6,241 nt of DNA from an uncultured bacterium (lineage in GTDB: Bacteria; Verrucomicrobiota; Kiritimatiellia; RFP12; UBA1067): NCBI GenBank assembly GCA_902779075.1, contig CACZAK010000250.1:1-6241 (forward strand). Direction: 5' to 3'. A program made the translations under genes and the position numbers. Position 1 is the first letter of the stretch; each line of letters starts with the position of its first letter. The notes beneath the pieces are model-generated. The model did no database searches. It was not told where the DNA came from and worked only from the letters and a program-made list of their open reading frames with translations. Of the stretch, positions 1,582-6,241 are shown in pieces.

Positions 1582-2676
1582 CTATGCCATGTCCTCAAGA
1601 ATGGATGCCACTGGGAACGCCGGGTTGTAGTGCCGCTGGATAAAGAGCGCGTTGCGCTCGGCGTAAAGCCGTTCCGCAAGACGATCGGCGAGCGGTATCA
1701 CGTGCCGCTCGTGTTCGCAGAAAAACGGCGGCACCGCATCGAGCGATCCGGTCGTCGAGATGTTCAGGCAGCCACACCGGTTGTTGCACCGCCCTTCGAG
1801 CGCGCATCCGGCACATGCCGGTTTCGCACTCTCGTTGCGCGCGAAGATGCATTCCCGGCTCCGCTCGTCAAGCCCGGTGCCGACATGGCCGATCTCATAA
1901 CCGGCGCGGCCGACGAACTGGACGCACGGATAGTACGTGCCGTCCGGCGCGACGGATATCTGCCGCCGCCCCAGCTGACACGACGCGCCGCGTCCGGGCC
2001 AGATGCGCGTGGCGATGCGCTTGTCAAACGCGGCGAAATAGACCTTCTCCTCGCGGCGGCAGGAATCGAGATACCAGTCCGCGAGACGTTCGTACGCTTT
2101 CCATAGCCGCCGCCGTGCGTCGGCGTCCCAACGCGCCTGGAAGTTGACGGTCGAGACAATGTACTTCGCGCCGCGCGCGCAGAGGTCCATGACGCCGTCC
2201 GCGAAATCTCCCGCCGTGTCGGGGTTGACGGTCATCATGACCGGCGCATACGGCAGTTCGGCAAGAACGAGCCCAAGTCCGCGCAATGCCTCCGCCGACG
2301 AGCCCGAGCCGTCTGCCCCGACGCGGTGCCGGTCGTGTGCGGTGGCCAGCCCGTCGCAACTCACCGCGACGCTGAGGCGGCATTCCCGCGCACGTTCGAC
2401 AAACGCCGGCGTCACCAAAGTGCCGTTCGTCGTCACCTTGTAGTGGAACGCGAACGGACGCCTCCTCTCGCAGGCGGCTATGATCTCGAAGATCAGCTCT
2501 TCGCGCAGCAGCGGCTCGCCGCCGAAGAATATGACGCCGCAGTTTTCCTCGCCGTCCGTGCACTCTGCAATCGCCGACAGGGCTGTCTCAAGCGCCATGT
2601 CGTTCGTCCCGTGTCGCGCGTAACAGTAGCGGCACGCGAGATTGCACCGGTCAGTGAGATGGAGCGTCAGGTGCAT
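1582..2676 (-). CDS. Radical SAM/SPASM domain protein, putative peptide or protein maturase
   Basis: This 364-residue protein is a radical S-adenosylmethionine enzyme. Residues C11, C15 and C18 form the CxxxCxxC motif for the [4Fe-4S] cluster that cleaves SAM, and FGGEP at 51-55 is the SAM-binding GGE motif. The C-terminal half has the complete SPASM pattern for two auxiliary clusters: C233-x12-G-x4-C251, then C288-x2-C291-x5-C297-x3-C301, then C320. Members with this layout usually modify ribosomally made peptides or proteins (thioether, C-C or epimerisation chemistry) or act as anaerobic sulfatase maturases; which applies here is not visible. I chose ATG 2676-2674 because the protein then begins MHLTLHLTDRCN, as radical SAM proteins of this type normally do; the TTG at 2721 is an unneeded extension. 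No Shine-Dalgarno sequence precedes the ATG, and the gene overlaps the upstream gene by 26 bases, so translation is probably coupled. No sulfatase is encoded in the window. Confidence 0.93.
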   Translation of the reverse strand: MHLTLHLTDRCNLACRYCYARHGTNDMALETALSAIAECTDGEENCGVIFFGGEPLLREELIFEIIAACERRRPFAFHYKVTTNGTLVTPAFVERARECRLSVAVSCDGLATAHDRHRVGADGSGSSAEALRGLGLVLAELPYAPVMMTVNPDTAGDFADGVMDLCARGAKYIVSTVNFQARWDADARRRLWKAYERLADWYLDSCRREEKVYFAAFDKRIATRIWPGRGASCQLGRRQISVAPDGTYYPCVQFVGRAGYEIGHVGTGLDERSRECIFARNESAKPACAGCALEGRCNNRCGCLNISTTGSLDAVPPFFCEHERHVIPLADRLAERLYAERNALFIQRHYNPAFPVASILEDMA

Positions 2677-3589
2677 GGCGTTTCGAGAGGTGGCTGAAGA
2701 ACCATTCAATCTGCGCGACAAGCTGCCGTTCCGCTATCTTGCGCCCGCTCCGCTCCTTGAATTCGTGCTTTTTCTTCCAGTCCGGCTTTCCTCCGGCATT
2801 CTTCTCGAACGCCTCGATTTCCTGCTTCGGGACGTATGCGACTGGATCGTAGAACACGCCGACGTCGACATGATGGCCCTCCGTCCGCTTGCCGAACCCT
2901 TGGACGGCCGCTTCCGCGGCATCGCGCGTGCGGCAGGTCCTGACGGTTGAGCCTTCCCAAGGATCCTTGAGCCAGCGGTCGGCGTCCGACTCGGAAATGT
3001 ATTCGATCCGCATCGATCCGTCGCGCGTGCCGAAGTCGAAAATCCACGTGCGCTTCTTCCGCGGCTCTTCAAGCGGCGCCCGGCGGGCACGGACGAGCCT
3101 CGCCACGAGATTCGGGTTCTCCCGCTTGCGCTCCCGTTCTCCGACAGGAGCCTCCACGCCGTCAAGTTCTTGCGCGTCCGCAAGCGTCACGCCACGTTTT
3201 CTGAATTCCCGCTCGATGATTGCAAGCGCAGCGTCCTCGGAAAGAATCACGGGCGGATTCATCGCCACGCAGCCGAAGGCGCCTTCGCCGTCGCCGGCAA
3301 GCGAGGCCGGCGGCAGCGGACAAACATCCGTCACAGGCCTTGGACTTTCCCGCTGCGGCTTTTTCGCGTCCGGCACGTTTTCCGTGGGCGCCGATGCCGG
3401 CGCGTCGCACGCCTCGCCGCCGAGCGCGAGCGTCTTGAGCCCGAGCGCGACGGCGCCGATCGTGGACACAATCGTCCGCAGACCCTTCCAGCGCTCCGGC
3501 ACACGCGAAAGATCCGCTTCGCCGATCTCGCCGGCCGTCGGATAGCGCGGCGTGGCATACCTGCGCAGGGGTGAAACAACCTCTCTCAT
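2651..3589 (-). CDS. Single-pass membrane protein, likely substrate or partner of the radical SAM enzyme
   Basis: The product has 312 residues. Residues 6-18 carry a Tyr/Pro-rich block (RYATPRYPT at 10-18) followed by VPERW at 30-34. One hydrophobic segment spans about 37-58. A Pro-rich linker comes next, then a Gly-rich block ending in FGCV at 105-108, directly followed by PPVILSEDAA at 112-121. A charged domain follows, with GVFYDP at 244-249 and a C-terminal amphipathic helix (AERQLVAQIEWFFSHL). Cysteines are few: C61, C90, C107 and C219. From memory, not from a search, proteins with this N-terminus and an FGCV..PPV.LSE block sit beside radical SAM genes in anaerobes, chiefly Firmicutes. 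I therefore infer that this is the partner or substrate. The start is fixed by AGGAGG 8 bases upstream and an ATGA overlap with the previous gene; the frame is open further upstream only as a shadow of that gene. C61 does not sit in a standard lipobox. Confidence 0.85.
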   Translation of the reverse strand: MREVVSPLRRYATPRYPTAGEIGEADLSRVPERWKGLRTIVSTIGAVALGLKTLALGGEACDAPASAPTENVPDAKKPQRESPRPVTDVCPLPPASLAGDGEGAFGCVAMNPPVILSEDAALAIIEREFRKRGVTLADAQELDGVEAPVGERERKRENPNLVARLVRARRAPLEEPRKKRTWIFDFGTRDGSMRIEYISESDADRWLKDPWEGSTVRTCRTRDAAEAAVQGFGKRTEGHHVDVGVFYDPVAYVPKQEIEAFEKNAGGKPDWKKKHEFKERSGRKIAERQLVAQIEWFFSHLSKRHAPDAPSH

Positions 3590-6100: not shown

Positions 6101-6241
6101 TCATGCCACCGTCGGCTGGAGCTTCTTGACCTGGGCGAGCGAAAGGCCGGTGTATCTTGCAATGTCCTTCAATGCAAGAATACCGTCCTTCAGCATCCGC
6201 TTAGCCATCGCTAGCATGGTCTCACGTTTGCCCTCGCGCTT
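6101..6241 (-). CDS. Rpn family recombination-promoting nuclease / PD-(D/E)XK nuclease family transposase, C-terminal tail only
   Basis: The frame is open from the right edge to a TGA at 6103-6101, giving the last 46 residues of a protein. It opens with the charged run KREGKRE and continues as a helix (TMLAMAKRMLKDG), then a small helix-turn-helix-like unit (IARYTGLSLAQVKKL). Rpn/PD-(D/E)XK 'transposase' proteins characteristically end with repeated E-G-R/K-E units followed by a 'mL..G...e.IA..TGLs.eei..L' tail, which this matches well. The nuclease domain lies outside the window, so activity and intactness cannot be judged. Rpn proteins are linked to RecA-independent DNA transfer. The gene ends 202 bases before the 770-residue gene in the same orientation and is probably not functionally connected to it. 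Confidence 0.75.
   Translation of the reverse strand, partial: KREGKRETMLAMAKRMLKDGILALKDIARYTGLSLAQVKKLQPTVA

Follow-up and report, generated by a model that had tools for sequence, protein, structure and literature searches.

Does a radical S-adenosylmethionine (SAM) enzyme modify a whole exported protein encoded beside it, and if so, how would that protein be recognized and where would it be changed? The question is raised by two genes in the window, by which we mean the entire 6,241-nucleotide stretch analysed here (contig CACZAK010000250.1, from an uncultured bacterium of the Kiritimatiellia): one for a SPASM-type radical SAM enzyme, P0002, and one for the FGCV protein, P0001. An earlier note on this DNA had described them as a two-gene cassette in which the enzyme acts on its neighbour. 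Both genes and their 26-base overlap (2651-2676) were reproduced. We consider it likely that the cassette encodes a maturase and its protein substrate, that a signal-peptide n-region acts as the leader, and that the protein is modified, probably in the GCV..PP loop, before export.

The enzyme and its pairing with the FGCV protein

Judged by its cysteines, P0002 is a SPASM radical SAM enzyme, as the earlier note had proposed. It opens directly with the radical SAM domain (PF04055, 53 bits), which contains the CX3CX2C motif, and carries seven further cysteines in SPASM spacing (C233, C251, C288, C291, C297, C301 and C320); the Pfam SPASM model scored 20 bits, just under its cut-off of 21.5 bits. 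The start codon, an ATG at 2676, is backed by the same MH.TLHLT start in most aligned relatives. The nearest loci, from uncultured genomes, encode enzymes 99% identical to P0002; among proteins of solved structure, 5wgg scores best against it by sequence. Comparison with the named SPASM maturase models placed P0002 in none of them, since all 25 families listed, of 88 matched in NCBIfam, fell under the curated cut-offs. The best model was PapB (NF047865; 174.4 bits against a cut-off of 340); lower scores came from nif11 (117.8 against 518.7), QhpD (TIGR03906; 107.6 against 453), CXXX-repeat (103.9 against 350) and SCIFF (102.6 against 425). The PapB model also matched 13/13 members of a diverse enzyme alignment, and no other family tallied had a better E-value.

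The earlier note had suggested asking how often the two genes are adjacent, and they proved to co-occur nearly always. An enzyme-first scan of the species genome collection, which reaches close relatives only, returned 20 loci, and FGCV was present on 19 of these. The one locus without it, L016, comes from a genome with two FGCV copies elsewhere; at L020, the FGCV match was weak in the scan (17 bits) and clear by alignment. Where the taxa were informative, these loci came from Lentisphaerae, Verrucomicrobia, Kiritimatiellae and Bacillota, with many rumen-type isolates; the label Kiritimatiellae-type for the non-Bacillota loci is our own reading. When both profiles were run on 240 genomes of one class, enzymes above 480 bits were found in seven genomes (eight copies), all seven of which have FGCV, and all eight copies adjoin it. 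The next enzymes in this class, from seven genomes at 236-260 bits, had no FGCV match.

Searches that began with FGCV covered 299, 240, 398 and 97 genomes (sets that share genomes) and yielded 19 genomes with any match; in 14 of these, the FGCV locus also holds the enzyme (frame-broken in G710). Eight of the 14 had not come up in the enzyme scan (G054, G249, G397, G432, G493, G627, G710 and G712), and the enzyme was adjacent at all nine of their loci. The pair is rare, with matches in 4/299 genomes (one of them spurious, G196) and 4/398 genomes of two overlapping phylum samples, and it is found in more than one phylum. Some loci have multiple FGCV copies with one enzyme (L020 and L071); at L020, three tandem FGCV-type copies precede the enzyme.

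The remaining five genomes with an FGCV match had no complete enzyme alongside. We rejected the match in G196 (E 9e-4, within a large unrelated open reading frame) as spurious. In G402 and G446 (L041, L042), a glycosidase-like protein of GH2 type has at its C-terminus an FGCV-like domain that lacks the leader and GFGC, and no matching enzyme was found in either genome at E 1e-60. G431 and G711 hold an enzyme remnant: the decayed G431 locus (L050) encodes a long fusion with an FGCV-like domain, lacking GFGC, next to the last ~63 enzyme residues, and in the decayed G711 locus (L070) the start of FGCV leads into the middle of the enzyme.

Several other observations concern the setting of the pair. 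In G010 (L052, L053) a TraX-family gene separates enzyme and FGCV, with a related fragment before a second FGCV copy that lies near a contig end (L052) with no complete enzyme beside it, and at L019 a TraX-family gene stands between the two; TraX is a pilin acetylation protein. One of the two pairs in G432 (contig C101, L048) lies amid genes that read by eye like ribosomal proteins, elongation factor G and RNA polymerase. Co-divergence is not clean in this genome, as the C101 enzyme is nearest to rumen enzymes (60%) and its FGCV protein is not, being 26% identical to that of the window and 33% to that of the other G432 pair. A tblastn search of plasmid and phage collections with the Bacillota homologue P0204 gave no match that would point to a mobile element. 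We also considered a small precursor of a ribosomally synthesized and post-translationally modified peptide (RiPP) elsewhere near the window enzyme, and rejected it: gene clustering over the loci compared found no other neighbour family common to the rumen and Bacillota loci.

Leader, core motif and fold of the FGCV protein

P0001 has no Pfam or NCBIfam family, and a sequence search against known structures gave no convincing relative; weak Pfam matches among FGCV members (W2, ANTAR, PqqD and others; best E 0.0026) were taken as chance. Homologues numbered 62 in one search and 435 in a profile search; among the 120 listed of the 435, those with a name were mostly Bacillota or Atribacteria. Conservation was counted over 184 aligned sequences, 63 close and 121 distant. 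The blocks that had looked conserved in the earlier note are present and are indeed conserved, and two regions stand out. Within the n-region, P14, Y16, P17, P31, R33 and W34 are kept in 61/61 close sequences with letters there, and across the whole alignment Y16 is found in 182/182, P17 in 181/182 and P31 in 182/182. In the loop that follows the hydrophobic segment, F105, G106, C107, P112 and P113 are kept in 63/63 close sequences, and G103, G106, C107 and P112 in 184, 183, 180 and 180 of the 184, respectively.

The intervening hydrophobic segment had been read as a membrane anchor. The best 19-residue hydropathy of P0001 is 1.59 (residues 40-58), and the mean maximum is 1.32 in the close and 1.65 in the distant sequences. 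AXA-like ends follow the segment in some relatives (by eye), and a lipobox-like motif, by pattern match only, occurs in 97/121 distant and 0/63 close sequences, the window protein having none. Because of this moderate hydropathy, the AXA-like ends and the lipobox in distant relatives, the segment resembles a signal-peptide h-region more than it does a stable membrane span. On this reading FGCV is exported, with the signal probably cut by signal peptidase I in the clade of the window, and many distant relatives are probable lipoproteins. The anchor is thus only partly right: what holds of it is export, lipoprotein-like in many distant relatives; the segment itself is signal-peptide-like, with no lipobox in the 63 close sequences.

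The n-region acquires a possible function from the sister clade, that is, the next enzymes in the same class (seven genomes above 500 bits, five of which had built the profile). All seven encode a small exported protein directly upstream of the enzyme, five of them with YP[ST] within residues 1-30, and these proteins are by eye unrelated to the mature part of FGCV. Out of sample, we collected 14 further sister-clade loci, 13 of them testable because a contig end truncates L110, and found an exported protein with a Tyr-Pro leader in 11 of the 13 (nine upstream on the same strand, two downstream). The two downstream cases, L108 (G914) and L109 (G913), are FGCV-like cousins beside intermediate enzymes; they have the Tyr-Pro leader, a profile score of 25.8 bits, and Thr for Cys (SPYGTGRP, SPFGTGMP). 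Four of the nine upstream loci have tandem Tyr-Pro proteins. L099, L101, L102 and L103 have tandem genes for Tyr-Pro lipopeptides upstream of a sister enzyme, with products that end, for example, in LGGAPLPPPVK or MMGGAPLPPPVK and in some cases have only ~65 residues. Among the sister upstream proteins, one has a LysM domain and another ends in IIMGKIQVVNPPKR.

We also ran an automatic detector that requires a hydrophobic stretch and YP[STAVDE], a residue set picked after the sequences were seen. On the same strand it picked out 16 N-termini upstream, in nine loci, and two downstream (L108, L109); on the opposite strand it picked out none. With plain YP, the counts were 16 upstream, three downstream and two on the opposite strand; at a hydropathy limit of 1.5, there were nine hits in five loci and none elsewhere. 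A profile of FGCV residues 1-36 scored 8/21 sister N-termini above all 6300 shuffles (two of the eight are the FGCV-like cousins), and among 570 real N-termini it exceeded 4.5 bits only for proteins with such leaders. The L102 and L103 leaders (MEIKP[IV]..., Tyr14-Pro15) match the spacing of P0204 (MDLKPV..., Tyr14-Pro15); sister leaders in general retain little besides Tyr-Pro. Because it is common to otherwise different cargo, the Tyr-Pro leader is the best candidate for recognition by the enzyme. The protein upstream of a third, more divergent enzyme (L089, G415) is secreted and contains VLGEIPEDIE and YGDIACP, and it has no Tyr-Pro leader.

A second likeness between FGCV and the sister cargo lies past the signal. 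In eight sister substrates we counted 25 matches to the pattern [LIVM].?G.[ILVM][^P]?.{0,3}P, compared to 3.0 in shuffles, with 0/5000 shuffles reaching 25. A tighter pattern, G.[VI][AS][VMI][NAE]P, fits 123/184 FGCV-family proteins (61/63 close) and three related sister substrates, against a background of one match in 225,495 residues; most sister substrates fit the looser pattern only. Both patterns were written after the sequences had been seen, and L076 and L077 are near-copies, so that we take this likeness as support, not proof. Because G-x-[VI]-x..P is common to FGCV and sister cargo, residues 101-113 are the best candidate for the modification site.

The mature part of FGCV is a well-predicted folded domain, with mean predicted confidence (pLDDT) of 83.6 for P0001 and 85.1 for P0204, the two models having been built from overlapping alignments. 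The domain fits the view that a whole protein, rather than a small released peptide, would be modified. Its fixed points are E128, D185, E196 and Q293 (183, 182, 182 and 184 of 184 aligned). In fold only, the models bear a weak resemblance to the PD-(D/E)XK nuclease superfamily: in a second look (VIA), I-Bth0305I was the top row for both models, with low Z and unrelated rows amid the nucleases. Foldseek gave no match at E 0.001 or better for either model, and the list for the second was topped by autotaxin (E 0.5), which gives a nuclease fold no support. E128, D185 and E196 stand at positions that we take to be typical of PD-(D/E)XK. The Lys two residues past the second acidic residue is absent; the site reads E196-Y-I-S in P0001 and E-F-V-S or similar in the relatives inspected.

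A proposed scheme and its alternatives

From the pairing, the conservation and likeness of the leaders, the cluster ligands and the predicted domain, we infer a substrate relation, an order of events and a site of modification. That FGCV is the substrate of the adjacent enzyme is well supported by these comparisons. In the cytoplasm, the SPASM enzyme would recognize the FGCV n-region (P-x-Y-P ... P-x-R-W), which would be both leader and start of the export signal. The enzyme would then make a radical-based change, most likely in the G-x-G-x-F-G-C-V-x-x-x-P-P loop ahead of the folded domain. The modified protein would be exported, probably with cleavage by signal peptidase I in this clade and with lipidation predicted in many distant relatives. 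In the rumen relatives, the probable partner of the product in its function is P0003, the large secreted protein whose gene lies upstream.

A number of observations weigh against this scheme. No modification of FGCV has been observed; the claim that the enzyme acts on its neighbour has come through both checks set in the earlier note, on co-occurrence and on sulfatase maturases, and is well supported though unproven. No leader-binding domain was matched in P0002 in the Pfam and NCBIfam scans. L076 and L077 lack YP[ST], no Tyr-Pro exported protein was found within the 1.5 kb searched at L104 and L106, and the FGCV-leader profile gives scores close to chance for L078a, L078b, L076 and L089. In G493, the FGCV N-terminus lies in another frame and has I-P for Y-P. 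Finally, C107 is absent from the three L020 copies, from P0291, and from the L108 and L109 cousins.

The absence of C107 bears directly on the chemistry. We considered that Cys107 might be linked to a nearby side chain in the manner of QhpD or PapB, stapling the loop before export, which is a special case of the scheme above. The nearest models, PapB, QhpD and SCIFF, are thioether-forming maturases, and C107 is found in 180/184 sequences. In contrast, there is no PapB-type CX3D/E motif around C107: the residue at C+4 is A in 92, N in 78 and S in 8 of 184 sequences, and the five commonest (A, N, S, P, W) include no Asp or Glu. Moreover, the Cys is missing from the L020, P0291, L108 and L109 proteins and from the motifs of most sister substrates, and the L020 enzyme keeps its own cysteines though its FGCV copies lack C107. 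Thus, the modification need not involve Cys; an obligatory thioether at C107 is weakened, and a thioether there at all is a possibility that we regard as doubtful.

The enzyme might instead act elsewhere, for example on P0003, with FGCV as its chaperone, inhibitor or effector. P0003 is indeed coupled to the pair in the rumen relatives: a homologue lies directly upstream of FGCV in 15/20 scan loci (weak at L010, 34 bits) and beside both FGCV copies in G008. It was not found in L019, in L020, in the loci of G054, G249, G397 and G432, or in the fetched Bacillota loci; an open reading frame at L016 looked alike by eye and the comparison did not confirm it. Because it was not found in L019, L020 and the loci of the four genomes named, we take P0003, for which we found no Pfam or NCBIfam family, to be an addition of the rumen clade. 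By gene order, the cassette is in the rumen relatives a three-gene unit, so that the pair of the earlier note is real and its description as a two-gene cassette left out a conserved member. For FGCV as a mere partner, there is also the lack of any observed modification. But the pair persists in the Bacillota loci, G397 and G432, where P0003 homologues were not found, L020 and L071 have several FGCV copies for one enzyme, and the sister enzymes have small, tandem, precursor-like genes in the same place, so that we hold a partner role to be unlikely.

Somewhat harder to sustain is the idea that the leader is itself the product, with the enzyme modifying YxxPxYP...PERW, cleavage of the signal freeing the modified peptide, and the mature domain serving as carrier. 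Y16, P17, P31 and W34 rank with the best-conserved residues and persist in L020 despite the loss of GFGC there, and Tyr, Lys, Arg and Trp are known sites of radical SAM cross-links. However, in most members conservation is just as high in the G-x-G-x-F-G-C-V..PP block and the domain, the sister cargo has repeated motifs past the signal, as core peptides would, and little of the sister leaders is kept besides Tyr-Pro; we think this version quite improbable.

The scheme can also be extended to a protein class in which the signal-peptide n-region acts as leader for cargo ranging from ~20-residue lipopeptides to folded domains. In the FGCV branch, the modified loop would then precede the first helix of a secreted domain of PD-(D/E)XK-like type, in which the acidic residues are retained and the usual Lys is lacking, and the enzyme would supply a protein-derived catalytic or metal-binding group instead. 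Taken as a whole, this extension is a long shot. That P0002 is an anaerobic sulfatase maturase acting on a distant sulfatase, which the earlier note had named as a refuting outcome, is extremely unlikely: TIGR03942 matches 13/13 of the members scanned (E 1e-10 or better), but P0002 scores 55.4 bits against a cut-off of 349.45, FGCV P0001 has no match to the sulfatase target motif (CxPxR or SxPxR), and the FGCV pairing is found in more than one phylum.

All genes of the window lie on the minus strand (Table 1) and are transcribed in the order P0003, FGCV, enzyme, P0004. No homologue of P0004 was found among the loci compared. The C-terminal fragment at 6101-6241 looks to us like the end of a transposase of the Rpn/PD-(D/E)XK type.

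Table 1. Genes and features of the window, with positions counted from its first letter
Feature	Position	Strand	Remarks
Radical SAM enzyme P0002	1582..2676	minus	364 aa, SPASM-type, complete gene
CX3CX2C radical SAM motif (C11, C15, C18)	2623..2646	minus	Cys in 105/105, 111/112 and 111/112 sequences with letters there
SPASM cysteines C233 to C320	1717..1980	minus	each in at least 122/123 aligned relatives
FGCV protein P0001	2651..3589	minus	312 aa, probable substrate
FGCV residues 1-36, putative leader (P7, P14, Y16-P17, P31, R33-W34)	3482..3589	minus	conserved n-region
FGCV residues 37-58, hydrophobic signal-peptide-like segment	3416..3481	minus	hydropathy and model helix 37-56
FGCV residues 101-113, GEGAFGCVAMNPP, candidate modification site	3251..3289	minus	conserved; resembles sister-substrate motifs
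FGCV residues 87-305, folded mature domain, weakly PD-(D/E)XK-like	2675..3331	minus	predicted models
P0003	3586..5898	minus	770-aa secreted protein, signal peptide by eye; shares 4 bases (3586-3589) with FGCV
P0004, 451-residue membrane protein	170-1525	minus	downstream of enzyme
Edge gene, C-terminal fragment ending ...LALKDIARYTGLSLAQVKKLQPTVA	6101-6241	minus	cut by window edge
Edge gene, start MNVRQYTAFISSNNDKPNYG...	1-165	minus	cut by window edge

Comparison with known systems

In the literature searched, which covered few subscription journals, we found no description of the enzyme-FGCV pair and no radical SAM system with its leader in a signal peptide. FGCV has two marks of a RiPP in the wide sense, a conserved leader and an adjacent modifying enzyme, and the cassette looks like part of a wider set, a new variant of exported RiPP-like proteins.

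Among named enzymes, PapB, the best-scoring model, is likewise a short enzyme that opens with the radical SAM domain, with CX3D/E substrates and a tolerance of other spacings (PMC9413430). It differs in that P0002 scores under the PapB cut-off and in that FGCV has no CX3D/E core around C107. In QhpD/QhpC, a SPASM enzyme also modifies a protein by way of an N-terminal leader (28 residues in QhpC) before export (PMC7876137). In contrast to FGCV, QhpC is small and Cys-rich, with a dedicated leader protease and exit through an ABC transporter; genes for such a protease and transporter do not adjoin the window cassette.

If the proposed scheme is true, the signal n-region is read twice, by a radical SAM maturase and by the export machinery, and therefore modified secreted proteins and lipoproteins would be possible without a dedicated protease or transporter. 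A Tyr-Pro n-region beside a short SPASM enzyme offers a search key for further members, and the sister precursors of ~65 residues offer small material for settling the chemistry.

The system that FGCV most resembles is that of the DAG-RiPPs (DybA/DybH, NedA), lipoprotein-RiPP hybrids of MNIO enzymes described in a 2025 preprint (PMC12636315), which we cite for the portion of its text available to us. There, too, a signal-bearing precursor is modified in the cytoplasm, to be lipidated afterwards by the general lipoprotein pathway, and some substrates are proteins of >30 kDa. The differences lie in the enzyme, which is an MNIO (DUF692) iron oxidase there and a PF04055 SPASM radical SAM enzyme here; in recognition, which uses a C-terminal motif there and a putative signal n-region leader here; and in the lack of a lipobox in the window FGCV protein (0/63 close and 97/121 distant sequences have one). 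The term 'radical SAM' does not occur in that portion of the text, and the authors expect further enzyme classes (PMC12636315). If our scheme is true, lipoprotein-RiPP hybrids would take in radical SAM enzymes besides iron oxidases, and folded domains besides short peptides, in two groups of bacteria at least, the Kiritimatiellae-type and the Bacillota. The closest published kind is thus the DAG-RiPPs, from a different enzyme class.

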